A DNA stretch of 64,000 nt from Desulfobulbaceae bacterium (lineage in GTDB: Bacteria > Desulfobacterota > Desulfobulbia > Desulfobulbales > Desulfocapsaceae), in NCBI GenBank assembly GCA_003249645.1, contig QKIH01000107.1, forward strand, positions 1-64,000. Direction: 5' to 3'. This document shows positions 15,987 to 52,001 of the stretch, in pieces. A model generated the notes under the pieces. It did no database searches, was not told where the DNA came from, and saw nothing but the letters and a program-made list of their open reading frames with translations. The translations under genes and the position numbers were made by a program. Numbering within the stretch: the first letter of the stretch is position 1; each line of letters starts with the position of its first letter.

Positions 15987-17831
15987 TTACGAGAACTGAC
16001 TGATGTTCAGCTCTTCCAGAAGAAGTTCGCTGGGTTGCAGTGTCTCATGGTCGTAGCCAACTTCGTCGAGATACTCATTAACAAGCAGATCGAGGTCGAT
16101 CTTGACATTGCTTGTCGGACCCTCTGCAAGCGGAGGGTTGCCAAGAACCCGTTCAGGGAATTTGAATGATTTGAAATGGATTCCGGCCTTGAGATTGAAA
16201 AGATGGCGCATGACCGATATCCTCGATCCGGTTTTGTTGAACGACTCTTCGCTCCAGTCATTGCCGTCGGCCAGTCTCAGGGTTTCAACGACATCCCTGT
16301 AATCGACTATGGAAAGACAAAAGGTGCATAAGCCGAGACAACTGAGGGCGTGGGTAAGATTGACATTGTCGATATGATATTTTGCGCGGCCGGAAAGATT
16401 GTCATTGGTCATTTCAGGCTGTTGGTAGCCTCCGACAGGAAAGGTCGTAGACCCTTGTGTGTGTCTTGCCGGTGTCGCGTCGGTGTAATAGGTGAGGGCA
16501 AGACCTGCAGACCATCTCGGATCATGGGCGGGCAGGGCCTCATTTCTGACTGCAATGGCAAAATCGGCAGTCTCTTCACCAAAGGTGCTGATGGCGTGAT
16601 CAAAGCCTTTCATCAGTGTTGCGCCCAGGGCCTCGCCTCTGCCGATCTGTTCTACGAGGGTGATAATCGATTCTGTATCGCCCCAGGTCAGTTCCAGCCC
16701 CGCTGTATGTTCGCCTGTGATGAATCCTTTCTCAAAAGATTCAATCGCGTAGCCGCATAGTCCGCCGCAGCCGATGGTGTCCATGCCGTAGCGGTTGCAG
16801 AGATCGTTTATCTTGATCAGTGAGGCGGCAGAATCGTTTAGCAGGTTCGAGCCGGTAAGTGCCATGCTTTCATATTCAGCTTTATGGACGCTGGTTGCTG
16901 TTTTGTATGGACCTGACTCGACCTTCTCATGGCCGCCGCATCCGATAACGCAGGAAGAACAGTTGTATTTTTTGCTCCTGTAAGTCTCCATCACCTCTTC
17001 GGTAATGGCTTCCGGGGCTTTGATGTCTGCTTTGGTTCCGGCCCAATTCTTGATCGGGGCATCGCCGACGTTTACACAGGTCTCGTAAAACATGGCGGTG
17101 CCGCGTCCGGACAGCCCTTGTGCAAAGGGGTTGTTTTTGAGCCCTTTTGCCATTTTCTGCCGCTTTTCCCTGAATAATTCTGGGCTTGCAACGGTCGTTT
17201 TTTTCTTGCCCTTGACAACAATGGCTTTCACCCGCTTTGAGCCCATAACTGCGCCAAGACCTGATCTGGCAGCCATCCGTCCCTTGTCGGTGGAAATGCC
17301 GGCAATCATGGATAAGTTTTCTCCGGCAGGACCAATGCAGGCAACTTCGCAATCTTTGCCATGGATACGTTTCAGTTCGTCGTCAGTTTCATAGCAATCC
17401 ATGCCCCAGAGAGAGGCGGCATCAAGAAGCTGCACTGAGCTTTCGTCGAGGTAAAGGTAGACGGGGGTGTTTGATATTTCAGAGAGAAGAATAACATCCA
17501 CTCCAGTCTCTTTCATGCGTCTGCCGAAGTACCCGCCACTGTTTGCGTCACCCCAACCGCCGGTGGAAGGGGATTTGCCAAACACCATGTAACGATCGGC
17601 CCCGATAAAACCTGTGCCGGTGAGATATCCTGGAGCAAAACCGAGAATGTTTTCAGGGCCGAGTGCGTCAGCTGCCGGGTTCATCTTTTCCATCAGCAGT
17701 CTGACACCTATACCGTAACCGCCGAGGTATTCATTGAATAAAAAGGGTGATATCTCGGTTGTCTGATGCGTTCCCTGTCGGAGCTTGACTTCAATGATTT
17801 TTCTGTTTACAGGTGCCATTCGATTTTCCAT
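15987..17831 (-). CDS. Aldehyde:ferredoxin oxidoreductase family protein
   Basis: 614 residues, standard for the AOR family of tungsten (or molybdenum) bis-pterin enzymes that oxidise aldehydes to acids with ferredoxin. The [4Fe-4S] ligands are visible: Cys291, Cys294 and Cys298 in NCSSCVIGC, and a later Cys in SCLGLCTFC (about 496-503). The N-terminal GGYGIGVRLL and FGKSPSTGGWGDANSGGYFG match the pterin-binding domain. It lies between an XRE-cupin regulator and a complete sugar-type importer on one strand, so it may oxidise an aldehyde formed from the imported compound. The start could also be the Met at 17819; neither site has a strong Shine-Dalgarno. Confidence 0.88.
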   Translation of the reverse strand: MENRMAPVNRKIIEVKLRQGTHQTTEISPFLFNEYLGGYGIGVRLLMEKMNPAADALGPENILGFAPGYLTGTGFIGADRYMVFGKSPSTGGWGDANSGGYFGRRMKETGVDVILLSEISNTPVYLYLDESSVQLLDAASLWGMDCYETDDELKRIHGKDCEVACIGPAGENLSMIAGISTDKGRMAARSGLGAVMGSKRVKAIVVKGKKKTTVASPELFREKRQKMAKGLKNNPFAQGLSGRGTAMFYETCVNVGDAPIKNWAGTKADIKAPEAITEEVMETYRSKKYNCSSCVIGCGGHEKVESGPYKTATSVHKAEYESMALTGSNLLNDSAASLIKINDLCNRYGMDTIGCGGLCGYAIESFEKGFITGEHTAGLELTWGDTESIITLVEQIGRGEALGATLMKGFDHAISTFGEETADFAIAVRNEALPAHDPRWSAGLALTYYTDATPARHTQGSTTFPVGGYQQPEMTNDNLSGRAKYHIDNVNLTHALSCLGLCTFCLSIVDYRDVVETLRLADGNDWSEESFNKTGSRISVMRHLFNLKAGIHFKSFKFPERVLGNPPLAEGPTSNVKIDLDLLVNEYLDEVGYDHETLQPSELLLEELNISQFS

Positions 17832-23643: not shown

Positions 23644-25992
23644 TTAGGAATTTATGCCAGCTTCTTCGATGCGTTTCAGAACCTTTTCCGGGGTCATGGG
23701 AGCATCATTGATTCTGATACCGAGAGCGTTGTATACGGCATTGGCCACTGCTCCTGCGGTTGCATTGTTTGCGGCTTCGCCGACTCCCTTGGCGCCGAAA
23801 GGACCGCTGGGCTCATAGGTGTTGGCGAAAAATACCTGCAGATCGTCGATCATCGGCATTTCTTTGGCTGTATACATCTTATAATCCATCAAACCTGCGT
23901 TGCATGTCAGGTGACCGGTTTCCGGATTGTAGTCGGAGTCTTCAAGCAGAGCCAGGGCAACGCCACGGCAGAGACCGCCCTCGAGCTGACCGGCGGTGAG
24001 CTTTGGATTCATGACAGTTCCGGCATCAACGGCCGCAACGGCTCGTGTTGTTCTGATCTCACCTGTCCAGGTGTCCACTTCAACCTCGATGAAGTTGGTG
24101 ACAAAGCATGGCGGACAGTTAGTCTGGCGGTGGCTGGAAACACCAATTGCTGTTCCCCAGCCTTTGAACTGGGCGGTTTTGGCAGCCTCGCCGACAGTGA
24201 TCTGTTTGTCGGTCCCTTCAAGGAAGATAAGGCCTTCACCGGTTACCGGATTCGGCTTAATTTGCAGGGCTTCCGGGTTGACATCAAGCAGCTTTGAAGC
24301 GATTTCAAGGATTGTCTTCTTGGCAATGGTCGCGGCCCTGAGGGCAGCAGCGCCGCCGCAATAGATACCCCTGGTGGCGTGGGTGCAGACGTCATACCCA
24401 GTGGTTGCGGTGCTTGATGGTGAAACTCCAATAAGCTCAACGCCGATTCCCAGTTCTTCACCGACTATTTTGGCAATTGCATCCAGGGTTCCTCCGCCGT
24501 GACACATGAGGGCGGTGGAAACATCGGCTGAGCCGTCTTCGTTGATTTTCACCATGGCGGTTGAATAGTCGATAACCTCACCCGGCTGCGGGGCACCTGT
24601 TCCTGAAGTGTGAAAACCCCTGCCGACACCTATGCCTCTTCTGAAGCGTCCGGTTTTCTCCTCCGGCTTTCCGCGGTCATCCCAGCCGATCATCTCCCGG
24701 CCCTTGACGAGCATTTCTTCAACGCCGCAGCTTCTGATGATGGATCGAACAGTCGGCCCCTGACCCCAGAAGGTCTGTCCGAGTCCGACATAGTTTTTCA
24801 GGCGCAGTTCAATGGGATCCATGCCGAGTTTATCGGCGATCATATCCATCAGAGACTCGACAGCAAAAGTTACCTGCGGGTTGCCGTAGCCCTGCATCGC
24901 ACAGGCTGGAGCCTTGTTGGTGTAGACGCCTGTTCCTGCAAAGCGAAGGGCGGGCATCCTGTAAAGAGAGACAAACCAACCTGCCATGCAGCCCAGCAGC
25001 GGGTAAATCTGGATATTGTGTGCACCGGCATCTACCAGGGTCTCAAGCTGTCCGGCGGTGATAAGGCCGTCCTTGGTGACACCGTACTTCAGCTTGATTC
25101 TGGAAGGATATTTACAGTGATTATACATATCCTCTTCGCGGGTCAGGATCAGCTTGACCGGTTTGCCTGCTTTGCGGGCAAGGGCTACGCAGATGGCAAT
25201 CGGTGTATTCATCTGGATGGAGGAACCGAAGGCCCCGCCGATGGTGACCCGATGGACATTGACCTTGCTGAGCGGGATATCAAAAATCCGGCCGAGCAAC
25301 TGTCTGGTGTTATGGATTGACTGGGTGGTAGGCCATACGGTTATGCCACCGTCTGCCTCAGGTTTGCAGACGACACCCTTGGTCTCCATCTGGCCATGGT
25401 AAACGCGGCCGGTGGAGAAACTGTCTTCAACTATCAGGTCTGCCTTGGCAAAGCCTTCTGCGAGATCTCCTTCTTCGATAACGCGCTGACAGGCAATATT
25501 GTGCTCGATGGGGAGCACCTTGTCGCCAAGCATGACCTCGTCATAGAGAGCTGTGCAGCCGTCTTCCATGGCCCTTACCGGATCAAAGACACCGGGAAGC
25601 AGCTCGTATTCTACCTTAACCGTGGCAAGCGCTTTTTCTGCAAGGGCCTCGGTCGGTGCGGCGACGGCCATAACACCTTCGCCCACATGACGGATGATAT
25701 TGGGAAGAACCGTGCGGTCCCGGTAGGTCCGTTCCGGGATGCTGACCTGACGCTCGTTGTACACCTTCTTAGGCACATCGTCATAGGTTAGGCACACAGC
25801 ACCCATTGCCTCTGCCTCGGAGGTGTCCACTGAGATGATTCTGGCGTGGGGGTGCGGAGAGCGCAATACCCTGGCAAACAGCATTCCCGGCAGGATAACA
25901 TCGCAAGAGAAAATCTCCGCTCCGGTAACTTTTCCAAAGCCGTCCTTTTTCTGGGTATCTCTACCTACACTGAAGAATTTTTTTTCTGACAT
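23644..25992 (-). CDS. Molybdenum hydroxylase large (Mo-cofactor) subunit 1
   Basis: 782 residues, xanthine dehydrogenase/aldehyde oxidase family. An a/b hammerhead domain (about 20-125) precedes the Mo-cofactor domains. The proposed catalytic Glu lies in GPFGAKGVGEAANN near the C-terminus. Two cofactor loops differ from the common form: GGAFGSSIQ instead of GGGFGGKE, and MQGYGNPQ instead of RGFGxxQ, so the loop Arg is Gln. These differ from large subunit 2, so the two enzymes probably act on different compounds. GGAG lies seven bases before the ATG. The linked yqeB, yqeC and mocA suggest a selenium-containing Mo site. Confidence 0.9.
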   Translation of the reverse strand: MSEKKFFSVGRDTQKKDGFGKVTGAEIFSCDVILPGMLFARVLRSPHPHARIISVDTSEAEAMGAVCLTYDDVPKKVYNERQVSIPERTYRDRTVLPNIIRHVGEGVMAVAAPTEALAEKALATVKVEYELLPGVFDPVRAMEDGCTALYDEVMLGDKVLPIEHNIACQRVIEEGDLAEGFAKADLIVEDSFSTGRVYHGQMETKGVVCKPEADGGITVWPTTQSIHNTRQLLGRIFDIPLSKVNVHRVTIGGAFGSSIQMNTPIAICVALARKAGKPVKLILTREEDMYNHCKYPSRIKLKYGVTKDGLITAGQLETLVDAGAHNIQIYPLLGCMAGWFVSLYRMPALRFAGTGVYTNKAPACAMQGYGNPQVTFAVESLMDMIADKLGMDPIELRLKNYVGLGQTFWGQGPTVRSIIRSCGVEEMLVKGREMIGWDDRGKPEEKTGRFRRGIGVGRGFHTSGTGAPQPGEVIDYSTAMVKINEDGSADVSTALMCHGGGTLDAIAKIVGEELGIGVELIGVSPSSTATTGYDVCTHATRGIYCGGAAALRAATIAKKTILEIASKLLDVNPEALQIKPNPVTGEGLIFLEGTDKQITVGEAAKTAQFKGWGTAIGVSSHRQTNCPPCFVTNFIEVEVDTWTGEIRTTRAVAAVDAGTVMNPKLTAGQLEGGLCRGVALALLEDSDYNPETGHLTCNAGLMDYKMYTAKEMPMIDDLQVFFANTYEPSGPFGAKGVGEAANNATAGAVANAVYNALGIRINDAPMTPEKVLKRIEEAGINS

Positions 25993-31499: not shown

Positions 31500-33794
31500 C
31501 TACTTGTTGTTTAACGCCTTGAGGATGGCCTCGGGAGATGCGGGCAGATCGTTTATCGGGGCGCCGATAGCATCGCAGACAGCATTGACAAAGGCTGGCG
31601 CCGAGGGGACCGAGGATGGTTCTCCAAGGCCCTTTGCGCCAAATGGTCCAAGACCGCCTCCCGATTCAATCATGTCGGTTTGCATTTCGGGGACATCCAT
31701 GGTGGTAGGAATGAGATAGGTGGCAAGATTCGGATTAAGGGTTTTTCCCTTGTCGTATTTTATTCCTTCCATCATTCCATAACCAAGACCATAGATGGCC
31801 CCACCTTCGATCTGTCCTTCAGCACTCAGCTTGTTCACTGCCTGTCCTGCATCGTAGCAGGATACATATTTAAGCAGTTTTGCTTCGCCCGTGTCGGTAT
31901 TTACTGCAACTTCCACCGCGTGTGATCCAAAGGTGAAGTCGGCAAAAACCTGGCCCTGGCCGGAAGTAAAATCCATAAACTCACGTGCCGGGGCATTAAA
32001 CTGGGCAAGGTTGAACAGCTCTACACCGTCTGATGCACAGATTTTTACAAGCTGCTGGAGCGGCATGTTTTTCTCTGGCGCCGACTCAACAATTACCTGG
32101 TGATCAATCAGATCAAGCTCTTCGATTGAAACCTCAAGATACTTGGCCGCGGTGGTGAGTAAATTCTCACGGATAGCTTTAGAGGCTTTCAGCGTGGCAT
32201 TACCGGACATGTATAACATTCTTGTTGCTGTGGTTGTGCCGGCAAGCGGCGTCAGAGAGGTGTCACCGAAATAAACGGTGACATCATCCATGTCGACACC
32301 GAGCACTTCTGCCGCGATGGAAGCAAGTGAAGATGTCTGACCGCAGCCGATATCCTGGACGCCGCAGCGGATAACCACACTGCCGTCAAGCTCGATTGAC
32401 ACATAAGAACGGGAGGTGTCATGGAGGAAGGTCATGCGGCCATAGCTCATCATGGAAGATGCCATGCCCTGTCCGATAAGGATGTTCGGCTTGTCGGAGA
32501 TAGTCTTTTCTCCAAGCATCTCCATAACTTTGATGCCTGTCGCCTCTGTTTCGACTGCATTTTCCAGCACACGTCCAGTTGCCAGGGCATCTCCCTTATG
32601 CAGATAATTCTTACGGCGAAATTCGAGTGGGTCCATACCCAGTGCTTTGGCAGCCTCATTCATCTGACGCTCGTAAGCGAAGCAGACCTGGGCGCCGCCG
32701 AATCCACGGTTGGCACTGGCAAAGGTGTTGTTGGTCAGTACGGTTCTGGTATCAACTTTAACCGTTTCAGAGTCATACGGTCCAACCGCTTTGACTGTTG
32801 AGTAAAGGAGAATCCACGGGCTCAGGTAGACGTAGGCTCCTGCATCGGAGAGGATGTCCACCTGCTGGGCAACGATCTTGCCGTCTTTGGTAACACCGGT
32901 TTTATACTCCATCGTATAGGCGTGACGCTTGCCGTGGGAGATAAGGGATTCTTCCCTTGTCCAGGTCATTGCGCATGGTTTTCCTGTCTTGAAGACTACC
33001 AGTGCGAGATAAGTTTCAACCGTGATGTCTTCCTTGCCGCCGAATCCACCGCCGACCATCGGGGCAATGACCCTGACCCTGTTCTGGGCAATGCCGAGAA
33101 CCTCTGCAATTCCCCTGAAGTGCTCAATAACCTGGGTTGATGCGCGAATGGTGATAACGCCGTCTTCTCCAAGCCAGGCGGTACCGCATTCCGGTTCCAT
33201 ATAGATGTGGTCGACCTGGGGCACAGTGTAGGTGTTCTCGATGATCAGGTCTGCCTTGGCAAAACCTTCTTCTACGTTTCCTTTTCTGACCTTGTACTGA
33301 CAGACAAGGTTAGTGTCGTCTTCGCCTACAAGGTACGCGCCGGGCTTAAGTGCCTCTGCCGGGTCAAAGACGCCCTCGAGTTCTTCGTATTCGACCTTGA
33401 TCAGCTTGAGAGCTTCGTCGCAGATCTCTGGTGTCTCGGCAGCTACGATGGCAACTGCCTCGCCGTAAAAACGGACTTTCTTGTCGGCAAGTACCCTGTA
33501 CAACCCTTCAAATCCGCCTACTGTGTGAGTTTGACCGAATTTGGTAACGGTTTCGTTGTTCGGAACATCCTTTGCGGTAAGAACGATTTCTACCCCCGCG
33601 AGTGCCTCAGCTGCACTGGTGTCGATGCTGACCAATTTGGCGGCGGCATGGGCGCTTCTCAGCGCTTTGACATACAGCATGCCGGGGATTTCATTGTCGC
33701 CGGCGTAGTTGGTCTTGCCAAGCACTTTCTCCCATGCATCGTGTCTCGGCATGGGTTTTCCAATAATGCGAAAATTTTTATCTTTATAGGACAT
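31500..33794 (-). CDS. Molybdenum hydroxylase large (Mo-cofactor) subunit 2
   Basis: 764 residues, xanthine dehydrogenase family. A hammerhead domain (about 20-130) is followed by the cofactor domains with the canonical GGGFGGKEDI loop and NRGFGGAQ, and the catalytic Glu region GPFGAKGLGEPSS near the C-terminus. The canonical loops contrast with large subunit 1. AGGGAG lies before the ATG. The genes of set 2 run FAD, Fe-S, large, whereas set 1 runs large, FAD, Fe-S, so the two sets are not a recent tandem duplication. Confidence 0.9.
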   Translation of the reverse strand: MSYKDKNFRIIGKPMPRHDAWEKVLGKTNYAGDNEIPGMLYVKALRSAHAAAKLVSIDTSAAEALAGVEIVLTAKDVPNNETVTKFGQTHTVGGFEGLYRVLADKKVRFYGEAVAIVAAETPEICDEALKLIKVEYEELEGVFDPAEALKPGAYLVGEDDTNLVCQYKVRKGNVEEGFAKADLIIENTYTVPQVDHIYMEPECGTAWLGEDGVITIRASTQVIEHFRGIAEVLGIAQNRVRVIAPMVGGGFGGKEDITVETYLALVVFKTGKPCAMTWTREESLISHGKRHAYTMEYKTGVTKDGKIVAQQVDILSDAGAYVYLSPWILLYSTVKAVGPYDSETVKVDTRTVLTNNTFASANRGFGGAQVCFAYERQMNEAAKALGMDPLEFRRKNYLHKGDALATGRVLENAVETEATGIKVMEMLGEKTISDKPNILIGQGMASSMMSYGRMTFLHDTSRSYVSIELDGSVVIRCGVQDIGCGQTSSLASIAAEVLGVDMDDVTVYFGDTSLTPLAGTTTATRMLYMSGNATLKASKAIRENLLTTAAKYLEVSIEELDLIDHQVIVESAPEKNMPLQQLVKICASDGVELFNLAQFNAPAREFMDFTSGQGQVFADFTFGSHAVEVAVNTDTGEAKLLKYVSCYDAGQAVNKLSAEGQIEGGAIYGLGYGMMEGIKYDKGKTLNPNLATYLIPTTMDVPEMQTDMIESGGGLGPFGAKGLGEPSSVPSAPAFVNAVCDAIGAPINDLPASPEAILKALNNK

Positions 33795-46639: not shown

Positions 46640-48631
46640 TTATTCTAGCGCTCTGCCGTCAACAACGAGTTTGTGTCCATTCAGATCGATATTTTTTATT
46701 TCTCCGCTTAAAGAACTGAGATACGAATCACCGGTGAGCTTCCATTTGCTGGCATTGTCGAGATGAAGAGATATTTTTCCGCCTTCGTTACCATTGTTGA
46801 TTGATCCGTTAAGTTGAGAACCCTCAGTTAATGTCATCTCCAGGGACGAGATCTGGTCAACGATGATTTTTCCGCTGATTTTCTGGTTGATTGCTTCAAA
46901 ATTACAGGTTCCGCCATTTTTGCCGATGACTCCCCAGCCATTCCGGGCATCGTTGCCGACAACTTTCAGGAATATATCGTTAAACGGGTTAAGCAGCACA
47001 TTTTGGAGTTTAACGTTGCAGGAAGTATTTGTCACATACAGCATATCGCCATTATGTGAGGTGAGGCTGCCGCCTTCCATGGAAAAGGAACTGCGGCCCT
47101 GTTCGGCGTCTCCAGACATGCTTTGATAAATCATAATGTTCTGCAGGTTCTGGACATTTTCTTTACGCATATTGCCGGAAACAATGCAGTCTTTCAGGGC
47201 GACTGAATTTTTCCCTTCAATCACCACTGCTTCAGAGGATGTTGCTGTTAATGTTGCATCGCTGACCTTGATGTCTGCTGTGCTGTATATGGATGGAGAG
47301 CCTTCTCCATGGGCCGTATAGGTTCCGCCCTTGACTGTTAATACGCCGCCGCCGCGGTCTGTTCGCAAGGCAGCAGAGGAGCGCCCCTGGGTTTCAATCT
47401 GTGAATTGGTTATATTCATTTTGCCGCCGCCGGTTACCATAATACCGCCGGAACTGCCTTGTGTGGTGCTGATGGTGCAGTCATTGACAATAACTTCGGT
47501 TCCCTTGCCGTAGGAGAAAATTCCGTTGCCGCCGTGGGTAGAGGACTTGATGGTACTGTTATTGATTGTTGCCCTGGAGCCGTTCATTGCCAGAAAAGCA
47601 GCATTGCTGCCGTAAAAATTACATGCATCGCCTTCAGCGGCCTGGCCGCCGGTTTTTTCGATGATAACGTCTGTTAAAACAACATTAACATCTCCGTCTG
47701 CACGTAACGCATTTTCGCTGTCGGATACGGAGCTAAAGGTCTTGCTGCTAATGTCTTTGGTTGCCATGTAAGCACTGCTGCCATGATCTACCGTTCCGGG
47801 ATTCATTCCCGGCATCATCCCGGGTTTCCCGCCAGGAGCACCAGGCCCGCCCGGTTTTCCAGGTTCTCCATGGGGTTGTCCTAAAAATGACAGGGGATAG
47901 AGGATGCCGACAATATCTGTTCGAGATACTGCAGCTGATGCATTGAAATTGCCGTCCGCGTCGGCTTTGAGAACCTGTATTCTTGCAAGAGTTGCGACTG
48001 CTTTTTTCATATCTTCTGATAGGGTCTCACCATCTTTGAAGGCGGAAACATCAGAGGAAACCATGAAAGGAGGCATGCCGTTGTTGATTTCACTACGGTA
48101 AAGCCAGAGTGCAAGCTGGCCTTTTGTCACAGGTTGATTAGGGAAGAATTTCTCTCCATCTTCAAAAATTCTGCTGGCTTTGCCATTGATAACAGCCATA
48201 TACGCATAGTTCTTATCTGGTATGTCATCATAACCGCTTCCGGTCTGCGCATACTTGTATTTGTTGAAAAGCATCAGAGCAAGATCTTGCCGGGATAGCT
48301 GATCTTTCGGATGAAACAGTTTCATTCCTTCCGGATCGGTTATTATTTTTTTTTCGAAAAGGTAATCGATGTAAGCGTTTATTGATGCGGTCGATGCATC
48401 AAGATCGATGAAATAATCGGATGTTGTTTTATCTTCAAGAGCTGCCGCCTCCATCATCGGTCCTCCGGGCGGGTTGCCGATTTCTCCTGGAGGCGGACCG
48501 TTTTGGGGAATGTTATTGGGCGGCATCGTCCCAGGCGATTGTGCCGAGACATTCTGTGCCGATAGGCAGGTCAGGAATAAAGTTAAGAAGAGGAGAGTTT
48601 TAACCCGTATTGATTTTTGCTCGTGCATCAT
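46640..48631 (-). CDS. Exported protein with SLH-like repeats, Pro/Gly-rich linker and beta-helix
   Basis: 663 residues. A signal peptide (LLFLTLFLTCLSAQNVSA) is followed by an MPPNNIPQNG/PPGG-rich stretch, about two S-layer-homology-like repeats (residues about 70-240, for example YIDYLFEKKIITDPEG and FFPNQPVTKGQLALWLYRSE), a collagen-like Gly-Pro-Met linker (about 250-285), then about 370 residues of polymorphic-toxin-free beta-helix repeats rich in N, G, S and T (ATINNSTIKSSTHGGNGIFS). It probably sits on the cell surface as an adhesin or matrix protein. AAGGA precedes the ATG. No passenger-release or sorting domain is visible. A diguanylate cyclase gene lies just upstream, perhaps a regulatory link. 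Confidence 0.75.
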   Translation of the reverse strand: MMHEQKSIRVKTLLFLTLFLTCLSAQNVSAQSPGTMPPNNIPQNGPPPGEIGNPPGGPMMEAAALEDKTTSDYFIDLDASTASINAYIDYLFEKKIITDPEGMKLFHPKDQLSRQDLALMLFNKYKYAQTGSGYDDIPDKNYAYMAVINGKASRIFEDGEKFFPNQPVTKGQLALWLYRSEINNGMPPFMVSSDVSAFKDGETLSEDMKKAVATLARIQVLKADADGNFNASAAVSRTDIVGILYPLSFLGQPHGEPGKPGGPGAPGGKPGMMPGMNPGTVDHGSSAYMATKDISSKTFSSVSDSENALRADGDVNVVLTDVIIEKTGGQAAEGDACNFYGSNAAFLAMNGSRATINNSTIKSSTHGGNGIFSYGKGTEVIVNDCTISTTQGSSGGIMVTGGGKMNITNSQIETQGRSSAALRTDRGGGVLTVKGGTYTAHGEGSPSIYSTADIKVSDATLTATSSEAVVIEGKNSVALKDCIVSGNMRKENVQNLQNIMIYQSMSGDAEQGRSSFSMEGGSLTSHNGDMLYVTNTSCNVKLQNVLLNPFNDIFLKVVGNDARNGWGVIGKNGGTCNFEAINQKISGKIIVDQISSLEMTLTEGSQLNGSINNGNEGGKISLHLDNASKWKLTGDSYLSSLSGEIKNIDLNGHKLVVDGRALE

Positions 48632-49711: not shown

Positions 49712-49751
49712 AATCCTGAAGTGCATTACAGATGGTGCGCAAAAATTTGTG

Positions 49752-49833
49752 ACAGTGTTAGGGGTGCCTCTTGCACAGAGGCTGAGAAATACCCTTGAAC
49801 TTGAACTGGTTCATACCAGCGGAAGGAAACACG
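49752..49833 (+). ncRNA. TPP riboswitch (THI element)
   Basis: The conserved pyrimidine-sensor helix is present: GGGGTGCC at 49761, an AGAGG arm, then GGCTGAGAAATACCC with the invariant CTGAGA. The pyrophosphate-sensor part follows (TGAACTGGTTCATACCAGCGGAAGG). It senses thiamine pyrophosphate. A terminator hairpin starts 27 bases downstream, so regulation is most likely by transcription termination. It controls thiE and the NRAMP-like transporter gene. Confidence 0.92.
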
Positions 49834-49859
49834 GACACGATTGTATATTTTATTTATAC

Positions 49860-49899
49860 AAGGCCTGTTCAGCTTTTTCTGCTGGGCAGGCCTTTTTTT
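49860..49899 (+). terminator. Riboswitch-controlled terminator
   Basis: AAGGCCTG (49860-49867) pairs with CAGGCCTT (49887-49894), with an inner CAGC/GCTG stem, followed by T7. It ends 13 bases before the thiE start and is the expression platform of the TPP riboswitch. Confidence 0.88.
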
Positions 49900-49912
49900 A
49901 TGGGGTGGGATT

Positions 49913-50539
49913 ATGGGGAAAACTTCTTTTTTTACTGTGGGAGCAAGGGCGCTTTACTGTTTTGCTGATTCGGTGCATTTGTGCAGACAACTGCTTGCCG
50001 GAGGTGCTCAAATTATTCAGTTACGTGCAAAAGGGCTTGCTGATCGTGAGTTTTATGAACTTGCCAGGCAGGTTCAGCAGGTGATCAGAGAACATCCATC
50101 CGATGCGAAATTAATCATTAATGATCATGTCGAGACAGCCTTTGCTCTAAAGACTGACGGCTTGCATGTCGGTCAGGATGATGGTGATTTTCGAGCGGTA
50201 ATCAGGCAGGCGCCGGCTGAAATGCTTATCGGAGTGTCGGTTAAAACGGTGGAGCAGGCAAAGGATGCAGAAGATGCAGGAGCTGCATATGTCGGTGCCG
50301 GTGCGGTGTTCCCAACCGCTACCAAGCCTGACAGCAGGGTAATCGGGCTAGACGGGCTGAGCCGGATTGTTCAGGCTATCAGTATCCCGGTTGTTGCCAT
50401 AGGCGGAATTGATGGCGAGAACATCGCCCTGACAATAAAAGCTGGGGCAAGCTATTGTGCCGTTATTTCAGCAATTAACGACGCTGAGAATAAAAAAGAA
50501 GCTATTGAAGCTCTACAACTAAAAATCGGGGTGAGATGA
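49913..50539 (+). CDS. thiE: Thiamine-phosphate synthase
   Basis: About 208 residues, normal for ThiE. It joins HMP-pyrophosphate and thiazole phosphate to thiamine monophosphate. TIM-barrel motifs: LLAGGAQIIQLRAKGL, LIINDHVETAFALKTDGLHVGQDD, and GAGAVFPTATKPDSRVIGLDGL (the phosphate-binding TxTK region). The frame is open back to 49841, but that part lies inside the terminator; ATG 49913 follows it. Controlled by the TPP riboswitch. Its stop overlaps the next start by 4 bases (ATGA). Confidence 0.9.
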   Translation: MGKTSFFTVGARALYCFADSVHLCRQLLAGGAQIIQLRAKGLADREFYELARQVQQVIREHPSDAKLIINDHVETAFALKTDGLHVGQDDGDFRAVIRQAPAEMLIGVSVKTVEQAKDAEDAGAAYVGAGAVFPTATKPDSRVIGLDGLSRIVQAISIPVVAIGGIDGENIALTIKAGASYCAVISAINDAENKKEAIEALQLKIGVR

Positions 50540-51747
50540 AAAATAGAACAATGAATTTCTTTAAACAGATGGGTCCGGCGTGGATTATCAGTGCCGTTGC
50601 CTGCGGCCCGGCAACGCTGGCCTCGGTATCAAAGGCCGGGGCTGCCTATTCGTATAGCCTGTTCTGGGTTGTGCTGCTCAGTGCAGTTTTGGGCACGACA
50701 GCACAATATCTTGCAGCGAAAACCGGAGTCCTCAGCGGTAAGGGAATTATTAAGACAACCGAAGAGTATTTGGGTAAAACCTGGGCATGGATACTCACTA
50801 TTGATGCCCTCGCTGCAACCTGGCTTGCGGCCATGGTTTTAATGAATGCTCTTTCAGGCGTTTTTTCTGTTCTCATTGGCATACAGACACCCTTCTGGGG
50901 TGTTTTTTTCGGAGCGGCAATCTGCTTGTTGCTGGTTGGCGGTGGTTATCGGAGTTTTGAATTTTTCTGCAAACTGCTCGTCGCCTTTGTTGTTATCTGT
51001 TTTATCGTTGTGCTGTGCATGGCAGATATCGACTCGACAAAACTGGTGCAGGGACTAATTCCCAGCGTGTCAGGGGGCGTTGATGCCGCTCTGCTTGCTG
51101 CTGCAATTATGGGCGGAGCTGTTCATGTCACGATCATCGGCATGCATACCTATACAGTCAATGAGAGGGTATGGAAAATTCATGACCTGCCACTAGCTAG
51201 AATAGACACTCTGCTTTCAATGGGTCTTGCCTTCGGCTTATACAGTGCTGCTATTTTTCTTGTTTCGGCGGCGGTATTGAATCCAAATCAGATAGTCATC
51301 ACAAAAGCAACCGATGCAGCCCTGGCCTTGGCTCCGCTGCTTGGCGAGAGGGCTATGCTGGTCTTCCTGATTGGTCTTTTTGCCGCGGCGCTTTCCACCA
51401 TTTCTCCTACATTCCTGGCAGGAGCATATTTCGTCAGTGATAAAATGGGTTGGGGGCTTGCAGTGAAAGATAAACGTTTTGCTGCTGTTATCGTTGCCGG
51501 CTGTATGCTCAGTATGGCAGGACCGTTTCTCAAAGGCGGATTTTTCGTTCTTCTGCCGCTCATGCTTGCCCTCGGACTTGTCGGAACGCCTGTCATTCTG
51601 GTGATTCTGATGTATCTGCTGAATCGCAGGCGTTTAGGTCTCCATGCTCCCAACGGTTTGTTCATCAATGTGCTAGGCGTACTGACAATTGTGGTGACAA
51701 CTTTTCTGGCCCTAAGATTTCTCTACACACAAATCGGTGGAGCCTGA
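50536..51747 (+). CDS. NRAMP-fold transporter lacking the metal-binding motifs, thiamine-regulated
   Basis: 403 residues with about 11 membrane helices. The N-terminus MGPAWIISAVACGPATLASVS aligns with NRAMP helix 1 (GPGFLxxxxxxDPGN), but the metal-binding Asp-Pro-Gly is Cys-Gly-Pro. Helix 6, normally containing MPH, reads GGAVHVTIIGMHTY. Both coordination motifs are therefore gone and a metal substrate is unlikely. Coupled to thiE by a 4-base overlap and under the same TPP riboswitch, so I infer uptake of thiamine, its pyrimidine (HMP) or thiazole precursor. Most databases would probably label it divalent metal transporter by fold. Confidence 0.82.
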   Translation: MKNRTMNFFKQMGPAWIISAVACGPATLASVSKAGAAYSYSLFWVVLLSAVLGTTAQYLAAKTGVLSGKGIIKTTEEYLGKTWAWILTIDALAATWLAAMVLMNALSGVFSVLIGIQTPFWGVFFGAAICLLLVGGGYRSFEFFCKLLVAFVVICFIVVLCMADIDSTKLVQGLIPSVSGGVDAALLAAAIMGGAVHVTIIGMHTYTVNERVWKIHDLPLARIDTLLSMGLAFGLYSAAIFLVSAAVLNPNQIVITKATDAALALAPLLGERAMLVFLIGLFAAALSTISPTFLAGAYFVSDKMGWGLAVKDKRFAAVIVAGCMLSMAGPFLKGGFFVLLPLMLALGLVGTPVILVILMYLLNRRRLGLHAPNGLFINVLGVLTIVVTTFLALRFLYTQIGGA

Positions 51748-51815
51748 TTCTGATTCAGCCCCGTAATAGACTGGCACTGCTTTATACCCTTGTCTATTCC
51801 AGTTGATTCACAAAA

Positions 51816-51861
51816 AAAAGACGTATCTGACAAGTTCCTGCACCTGGGATACGTCTTTTCT
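51816..51861 (+). terminator. Terminator after the thiE operon
   Basis: AAAAGACGTATC (51816-51827) pairs with GATACGTCTTTT (51848-51859) around a 20-base loop; T-rich end. A-tracts on the other side make it partly bidirectional. Confidence 0.8.
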
Positions 51862-52001
51862 CCCTTTCTTGATTCATGCCGATAACCATCGCAACGTCAC
51901 GTGTTTACGGCCTCTTGTGAAATTGAAAAATGAAAGATCACCGTCTGAAATTGACACTCTGCATAACTTTGTGAGAAAATAGAACTGATCTTGTCAGGTG
52001 T

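Follow-up and report, generated by a model that had tools for sequence, protein, structure and literature searches.

The canonical Slc11/NRAMP transporters, such as MntH and DraNramp, belong to PF01566, adopt an 11-helix LeuT fold and carry the motifs DPGN and MPH together with proton-pathway acids in TM3. Nramp-related proteins without the metal motif are a known paraphyletic group, mostly uncharacterised, in which some 'G-motif' groups are distinguished (preprint PMC12873925). NrmT (EleNRMT) was identified as a Mg2+ transporter through its M-box riboswitch (PMC4072509). The use of 5-oxoproline requires PxpT in Corynebacterium and YcsG in Bacillus, which operon and mutant phenotype link to this organic heterocycle (PMC13274462), although YcsG, under the name MntG, has also been described as importing Mn2+ (PMC10448178). 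A survey of riboswitch regulons describes 19 orthologue groups of transporters for thiamin and its precursors, and its main text does not mention Nramp (PMC3766115). No report connecting an NRAMP protein to thiamine transport or to a TPP riboswitch was found in the open-access literature, although regulon databases, for example, may hold an earlier mention; in PMC13060092 thiamin is just a component of the growth medium.

Here, we report a clade of NRAMP-fold proteins, referred to as NRAMPth, that was recognised from a window of 64,000 nucleotides, the whole stretch of Desulfobulbaceae DNA that was analysed. By the same logic as for NrmT, the clade was recognised through an upstream riboswitch, and the two folds match (Z ~42). 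However, NrmT has an M-box (Mg2+) riboswitch and a role in Mg2+ homeostasis, whereas NRAMPth is accompanied by TPP riboswitches and thiamin genes; no M-box riboswitch was found in the window, nor in any of the 35 GTDB-contig loci scanned. The YcsG model matches that of NRAMPth with Z 38.9 at 16% identity, but the PxpT/YcsG operon holds 5-oxoprolinase where NRAMPth operons hold thiamin genes, and neither the operon in the window nor any annotated haloarchaeal NRAMPth locus showed an oxoprolinase (bacterial neighbours were scanned in part). Among the known or predicted TPP-regulated or thi-clustered transporters of HMP, HET or pyrimidine derivatives are CytX, ThiW, ThiXYZ and the SSS-type ThiV. 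These belong to other protein families than NRAMPth, and a CytX-like NCS1 permease shares its operon in two loci, L046 and L047.

The thiE operon and its transporter

The operon in the window consists of the following features.

49750..49844 (+): TPP riboswitch aptamer (RF00059, cmscan 68 bits, E 3.1e-11, model positions 1-105 of 105)
49860..49894 (+): intrinsic terminator, the riboswitch expression platform (14-bp stem with 8 GC pairs, 7-nt loop, T-run; -25.5 kcal/mol)
49913..50539 (+): thiE, thiamine phosphate synthase (PF02581, E 3.9e-56; TIGR00693, 173.9 bits with a cut-off of 145.1)
50536..51747 (+): NRAMPth, NRAMP-fold transporter without the canonical metal-site residues, candidate permease for a thiamin precursor (HET); 403 aa (PF01566, E 2.1e-72)
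50605..50616 (+): helix-1 motif G24-P25-A26-T27 in place of D-P-G-N (alignment to canonical proteins)
51124..51132 (+): helix-6 motif H197-V198-T199 in place of M-P-H (alignment to canonical proteins)
51813..51862 (+): inverted repeat AAAAGACGTATC...GATACGTCTTTT 3' of the transporter, seen by eye in the sequence and unscored

The full-length aptamer match exceeds the RF00059 gathering score of 54.3 and thereby places the element in the TPP riboswitch class. The leader RNA folds at -58.2 kcal/mol against -39.8 +/- 3.7 for shuffled sequences (z -4.95). In folding predictions with the 3' part of the terminator blocked, UUUUUCUGCU from the terminator region base-pairs with the aptamer's 3' bases, a possible antiterminator; such alternative pairing is as expected of an attenuator. 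The thiE stop and the NRAMPth start share the bases ATGA, giving a 4-base ATG/TGA overlap at 50536-50539, and the inverted repeat downstream is likely to be the terminator that closes the operon. The only further TPP riboswitch in the same genome lies upstream of thiM and another thiE, and no other PF01566 gene was found there, at a genome completeness of 87%; many of the compared genomes are likewise incomplete. Elsewhere in the window, two xanthine-dehydrogenase-type molybdenum hydroxylase subunits (23644-25992 and 31500-33794 (-)) and an aldehyde ferredoxin oxidoreductase (15987-17831 (-)) are encoded, a hint that this region serves purine or aldehyde metabolism, and an S-layer-homology protein of 663 residues with Gly/Pro-rich stretches is encoded at 46640-48631 (-).

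Both the PF01566 match and the predicted fold place the transporter in the NRAMP superfamily in the wide sense. Its AlphaFold model (pLDDT 85.8) superposes on outward-open DraNramp (6d91) with Z 48.5 and an rmsd of 2.4 over 389 residues at 24% identity. The metal site, on the other hand, is gone. The D and N of DPGN and the M and H of MPH are replaced in 54/54 members, 40 bacterial and 14 haloarchaeal, and the equivalents of D56, N59, M230 and H232 are G, T, H and T in every aligned member, position 27 being T or, in two haloarchaea, S. In the window protein, A99 and L102 stand at the positions of the TM3 proton-pathway acids (D131 and E134 in DraNramp). Invariant throughout the 54 members are W16, G24, P25, D90 (a different acid), K146, H197, T199, Y206 and Y236, with a TM6 motif of HVT or HIT, and the commonest canonical residue differs at every one of these positions but P25. 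On this conservation, they are candidates for residues of a new site. The curated NCBIfam models for MntH and Nramp_1 are all scored below their cut-offs (PRK00701, 110.6 of 430; TIGR01197, 71.2 of 272.5; NF037982, 34.1 of 50), and together with the motifs and the tree described below these scores rule out an ordinary MntH. The first-pass annotation of this DNA had described the riboswitch with its terminator ahead of thiE, the 4-base overlap, the NRAMP architecture and the missing helix-6 MPH, all of which were borne out; its reading of helix 1 as CGPA was right in the loss of DPGN and one residue off in register, since Cys23 precedes the aligned GPAT.

Distribution of the clade and its link to thiamin genes

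Proteins 43-69% identical to that of the window occur in five other genomes of the same organism family, canonical Nramps being about 25% identical, and a scan of GTDB contigs gave 35 loci, which come from Desulfobacterota or from bins labelled Deltaproteobacteria and the like. Scores over 395 genomes of the phylum were bimodal, with about 17 genomes carrying close members, most others scoring under 140 bits and a single intermediate reaching 205. That intermediate is a distant Nramp-related protein with the motif GPGT (L078:1483-2718 (-)), whose gene follows one resembling serine dehydratase alpha, with an amino acid permease nearby. Homologues with 40-44% identity are also found on haloarchaeal plasmids (14 loci), and annotated records name all of the haloarchaeal members seen 'divalent metal cation transporter'. 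In a phylogenetic tree, the bacterial members and the 14 haloarchaeal plasmid proteins form one group (SH-aLRT 89, or 99 with L078 included, whose placement is unsafe at a branch length of 4.5), the canonical DPGN proteins are separate from it with a support of 100, and the haloarchaeal set is nested within NRAMPth, for which gene transfer from bacteria to haloarchaea would be the simplest reading. Two further sets of relatives were seen. One, common in Desulfobacterota (L081-L091), is a separate NRAMP-family group marked by NDAGG in TM1 and PW in TM6; on a branch apart from NRAMPth, haloarchaeal Nramp-related proteins with GPGT in TM1 (L107:4001-5224, L108:3983-5191) are encoded ahead of hydantoinase/oxoprolinase A and B genes, a context again pointing to an organic substrate.

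With each Desulfobacterota genome counted once (37 genomes, being the 35 loci plus G000 and G037), an intact same-strand TPP riboswitch precedes NRAMPth in 27; in L046 it is truncated by the contig end, and nine genomes have none. The riboswitch of L056 lies just at the edge of the locus, ahead of the same run of genes. Seven more members came from the phylum sample with short flanks, among which a TPP riboswitch is present in L075 and L076 and absent in five members of one family (L068-L072). By comparison, other NRAMP-family loci had a TPP riboswitch in 0/22 cases, and a carrier genome holds just 0-5 such riboswitches in all. The operon partners of the bacterial members, as judged by Pfam, comprise ThiM, ThiE, ThiD, ThiD-ThiN, TenA, an NMT1/THI5-type ABC transporter (ThiXYZ), TPK, the CytX-like permease and ThiC; L044 also has a Thi4 gene, as the genome search confirmed. 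In the haloarchaea, half of the loci (7/14) have as a neighbour the thiaminase II gene tenA, a second TenA-family gene, thiD or an SSS symporter. In five bacterial loci (L054, L055, L057, L058 and L059) a divergent ThiM precedes NRAMPth and a second ThiM is encoded elsewhere in the genome; in several of these the divergent ThiM matches the ThiM models in two pieces, as if it contained an internal insert.

The thiamine link is thus reproduced in two separate settings, bacterial operons and haloarchaeal plasmids. A chance association is ruled out by the 27/37 versus 0/22 counts and by the independent haloarchaeal clusters. Conserved TPP regulation and thi clustering across genomes are the marks of a transporter of the thiamin pathway, and NRAMPth very probably serves this pathway. 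From thiamine regulation and the loss of metal ligands in a single gene, the first-pass annotation had proposed a transporter of thiamine, HMP or thiazole and had suggested that homologues be examined for TPP riboswitches. The proposal is strengthened by the linkage across the clade and by the replacement of the ligands in every aligned member. Its contrast with a superfamily known for metals holds for this thiamine-linked clade, but is to be qualified by the motif-less Nramp-related proteins already known and by the role of PxpT/YcsG in 5-oxoproline uptake.

PloopX and the gaps in the thiamin pathway

Most bacterial members are followed directly (gap ~0), or after one gene such as DUF2284, by the gene for a protein some 180 residues long that we name PloopX and that has the motifs GDVNSGKT, GGK, APR and FIND (for example L007:2688-3227 and its equivalents, and L093:8272-8805). 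A PloopX homologue lies directly downstream of the transporter in 11/14 haloarchaeal loci, and PloopX occurs at 12 places in the plasmid collection, always next to NRAMPth. PloopX matched no Pfam or NCBIfam family above its cut-off, and its best sequence matches in the PDB, designed PPR repeat proteins, were disregarded. The predicted structure (pLDDT 91) has a RecA-like P-loop fold nearest to the corrinoid adenosyltransferase CobA (Z 13.8, rmsd 2.9 over 140 residues), followed by type II thymidine kinases (Z ~12) and CobU (Z 11.9), which are all small-molecule transferases. A small-molecule kinase would be the natural guess from this model, though a fold match is no proof of function. In Desulfogranum mediterraneum PloopX is interrupted by a stop (L033:7206-7406) and ThiM is kept. 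The DUF2284 protein, a predicted metal-binding protein, is encoded between NRAMPth and PloopX or nearby in L045, L051, L052, L061 and L076.

The carrier genomes were searched for TPK, ThiM, ThiG, ThiC, PloopX, ThiL and Thi4; for Thi4, where FAD proteins gave many weak matches, the count was restricted to the seven hits scoring over 230 bits. Across the 37 genomes TPK and ThiL substitute for one another, with 25 having ThiL only, nine TPK only, one both and two neither, and from this distribution most carriers, including the genome of the window, have no direct known use for free thiamine. Neither ThiG nor Thi4 was found in 20 of the 37 genomes, and every one of these 20 has ThiM or PloopX. Nine of the 20 (G096, G110, G111, G112, G116, G117, G118, G125 and G126) have ThiL but neither ThiG, Thi4, ThiM nor TPK; PloopX is present in 9/9. 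Among the 34 genomes scored for both proteins, 16 have PloopX only, ten ThiM only, eight both and none neither (Fisher p 4e-4, uncorrected for kinship). When kinship is respected, one to five informative pairs are left, all in the expected direction (p 0.06-1), so that this complementarity is not significant and should be taken as suggestive, not proven. ThiM adjoins NRAMPth in five loci without PloopX and never adjoins PloopX, and PloopX was not found in the window's own genome or in its nearest relative G065, both of which carry ThiM.

Individual genomes illustrate what such operons could supply. In L047, a TPP riboswitch is followed by NRAMPth, PloopX, ThiD-ThiN and CytX, which with ThiL would make up a whole salvage route if NRAMPth takes up HET and CytX takes up HMP. 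The TPP operons of G065 are limited to two, one consisting of thiE-NRAMPth and the other of thiM with an ABC transporter after it, and ThiC, ThiG, Thi4 and TPK were not found in searches of this genome. The sole ThiC-like gene of the window's own genome (L109:4740-6062 (-)) is not part of any thi cluster and scores above the ThiC cut-off (TIGR00190) and below that of BzaB; its product may have another role than HMP synthesis. Two classes of ThiC-like proteins, including second copies, were seen among these genomes, at about 640 and at 570-600 bits, the latter possibly a 5-hydroxybenzimidazole synthase.

Substrate and proposed mechanism

On balance, the gene context favours, with moderate confidence, the import of HET (5-(2-hydroxyethyl)-4-methylthiazole) by NRAMPth, although 17/37 carriers can make thiazole via ThiG or Thi4. 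HET can probably also diffuse across membranes. In several loci ThiD is a neighbour of NRAMPth, and haloarchaea have their clusters with tenA and thiD; both would also suit import by NRAMPth of HMP, the pyrimidine precursor, or of a similar aminopyrimidine, for use via ThiD. ThiD or ThiDN is in the operon at many loci, a second TenA gene is part of the haloarchaeal grouping, ThiC is missing in many carriers, and any cell with ThiD could use HMP. Even so, HMP is a rather unlikely substrate: pyrimidine transporters often lie in the same or the divergent operon, namely CytX in L046 and L047, ABC genes in G065 and ThiXYZ-like genes in L042, L044, L045, L048, L056, L061 and L062, which would make a second HMP transporter redundant, and the conserved pairing of NRAMPth with PloopX or ThiM would be left unexplained.

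Thiamine itself, phosphorylated after import by TPK or, where TPK is lacking, by PloopX acting as a thiamine kinase ahead of ThiL, is an unlikely substrate. TPP-regulated transporters are often thiamine importers, as set out in the regulon survey (PMC3766115), TPK is the first gene of the L044 operon and a TPK-like gene, seen in the sequence, precedes NRAMPth in L076. The mutual replacement of TPK and ThiL could be read in the same way, and the gap in the nine genomes would be closed equally well by a PloopX with thiamine kinase activity. However, TPK is absent in 27/37 genomes, that of the window included, and both TPK and PloopX are missing from five genomes, all with ThiM (G000, G065, G100, G103 and G113), so that imported thiamine would be of little use to them barring another kinase. 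The enzymes that join precursors, ThiE, ThiD and ThiN, are moreover encoded in these operons, and imported thiamine needs none of them. Import of a metal (Fe, Mn or Mg) for thiamin enzymes or TPP-dependent enzymes, which membership in PF01566, the Mg2+ and Mn2+ transport ascribed to NrmT and YcsG, the iron used by ThiC and Thi4 and the DUF2284 gene at some loci would favour, is very improbable given the replaced ligands and TM3 acids, the NRAMPth loci scanned, at which no metal riboswitch was seen, and several carriers (G065, G096, G103 and others) in which ThiC, ThiG and Thi4 were not found, an absence that also weakens any tie of the gene to the iron demand of ThiC and Thi4.

With HET as the preferred substrate, the following course may be envisaged. 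At low TPP the riboswitch, if it behaves as others of its class, would let transcription through the terminator so that thiE and the transporter are made. NRAMPth would act as an Nramp-related secondary permease of the LeuT fold, with a site for an organic solute instead of a metal, and would import a thiamin precursor, most likely HET. Inside the cell, HET would be phosphorylated by ThiM in the genome of the window and by PloopX, as a putative kinase, in others; ThiE or ThiN would then join HET-P with HMP-PP, and ThiL would make TPP. We tentatively propose that NRAMPth and PloopX may form an unrecognised transport-and-trap module for B1 salvage in bacteria and archaea, in which a HET permease is paired with a HET kinase of the CobA/thymidine-kinase fold that replaces the unrelated ThiM.

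NRAMP proteins are almost automatically annotated as metal transporters, and a clade for a vitamin precursor, if true, would correct many annotations. It would provide a second case of an organic substrate alongside PxpT/YcsG and would help to show how the LeuT fold shifts between organic and metal substrates. It would also identify a carrier for the thiazole moiety of thiamin, a kind of transporter with few known examples, and would suggest a new kinase that closes the gap in genomes where thiazole phosphate seems unobtainable.
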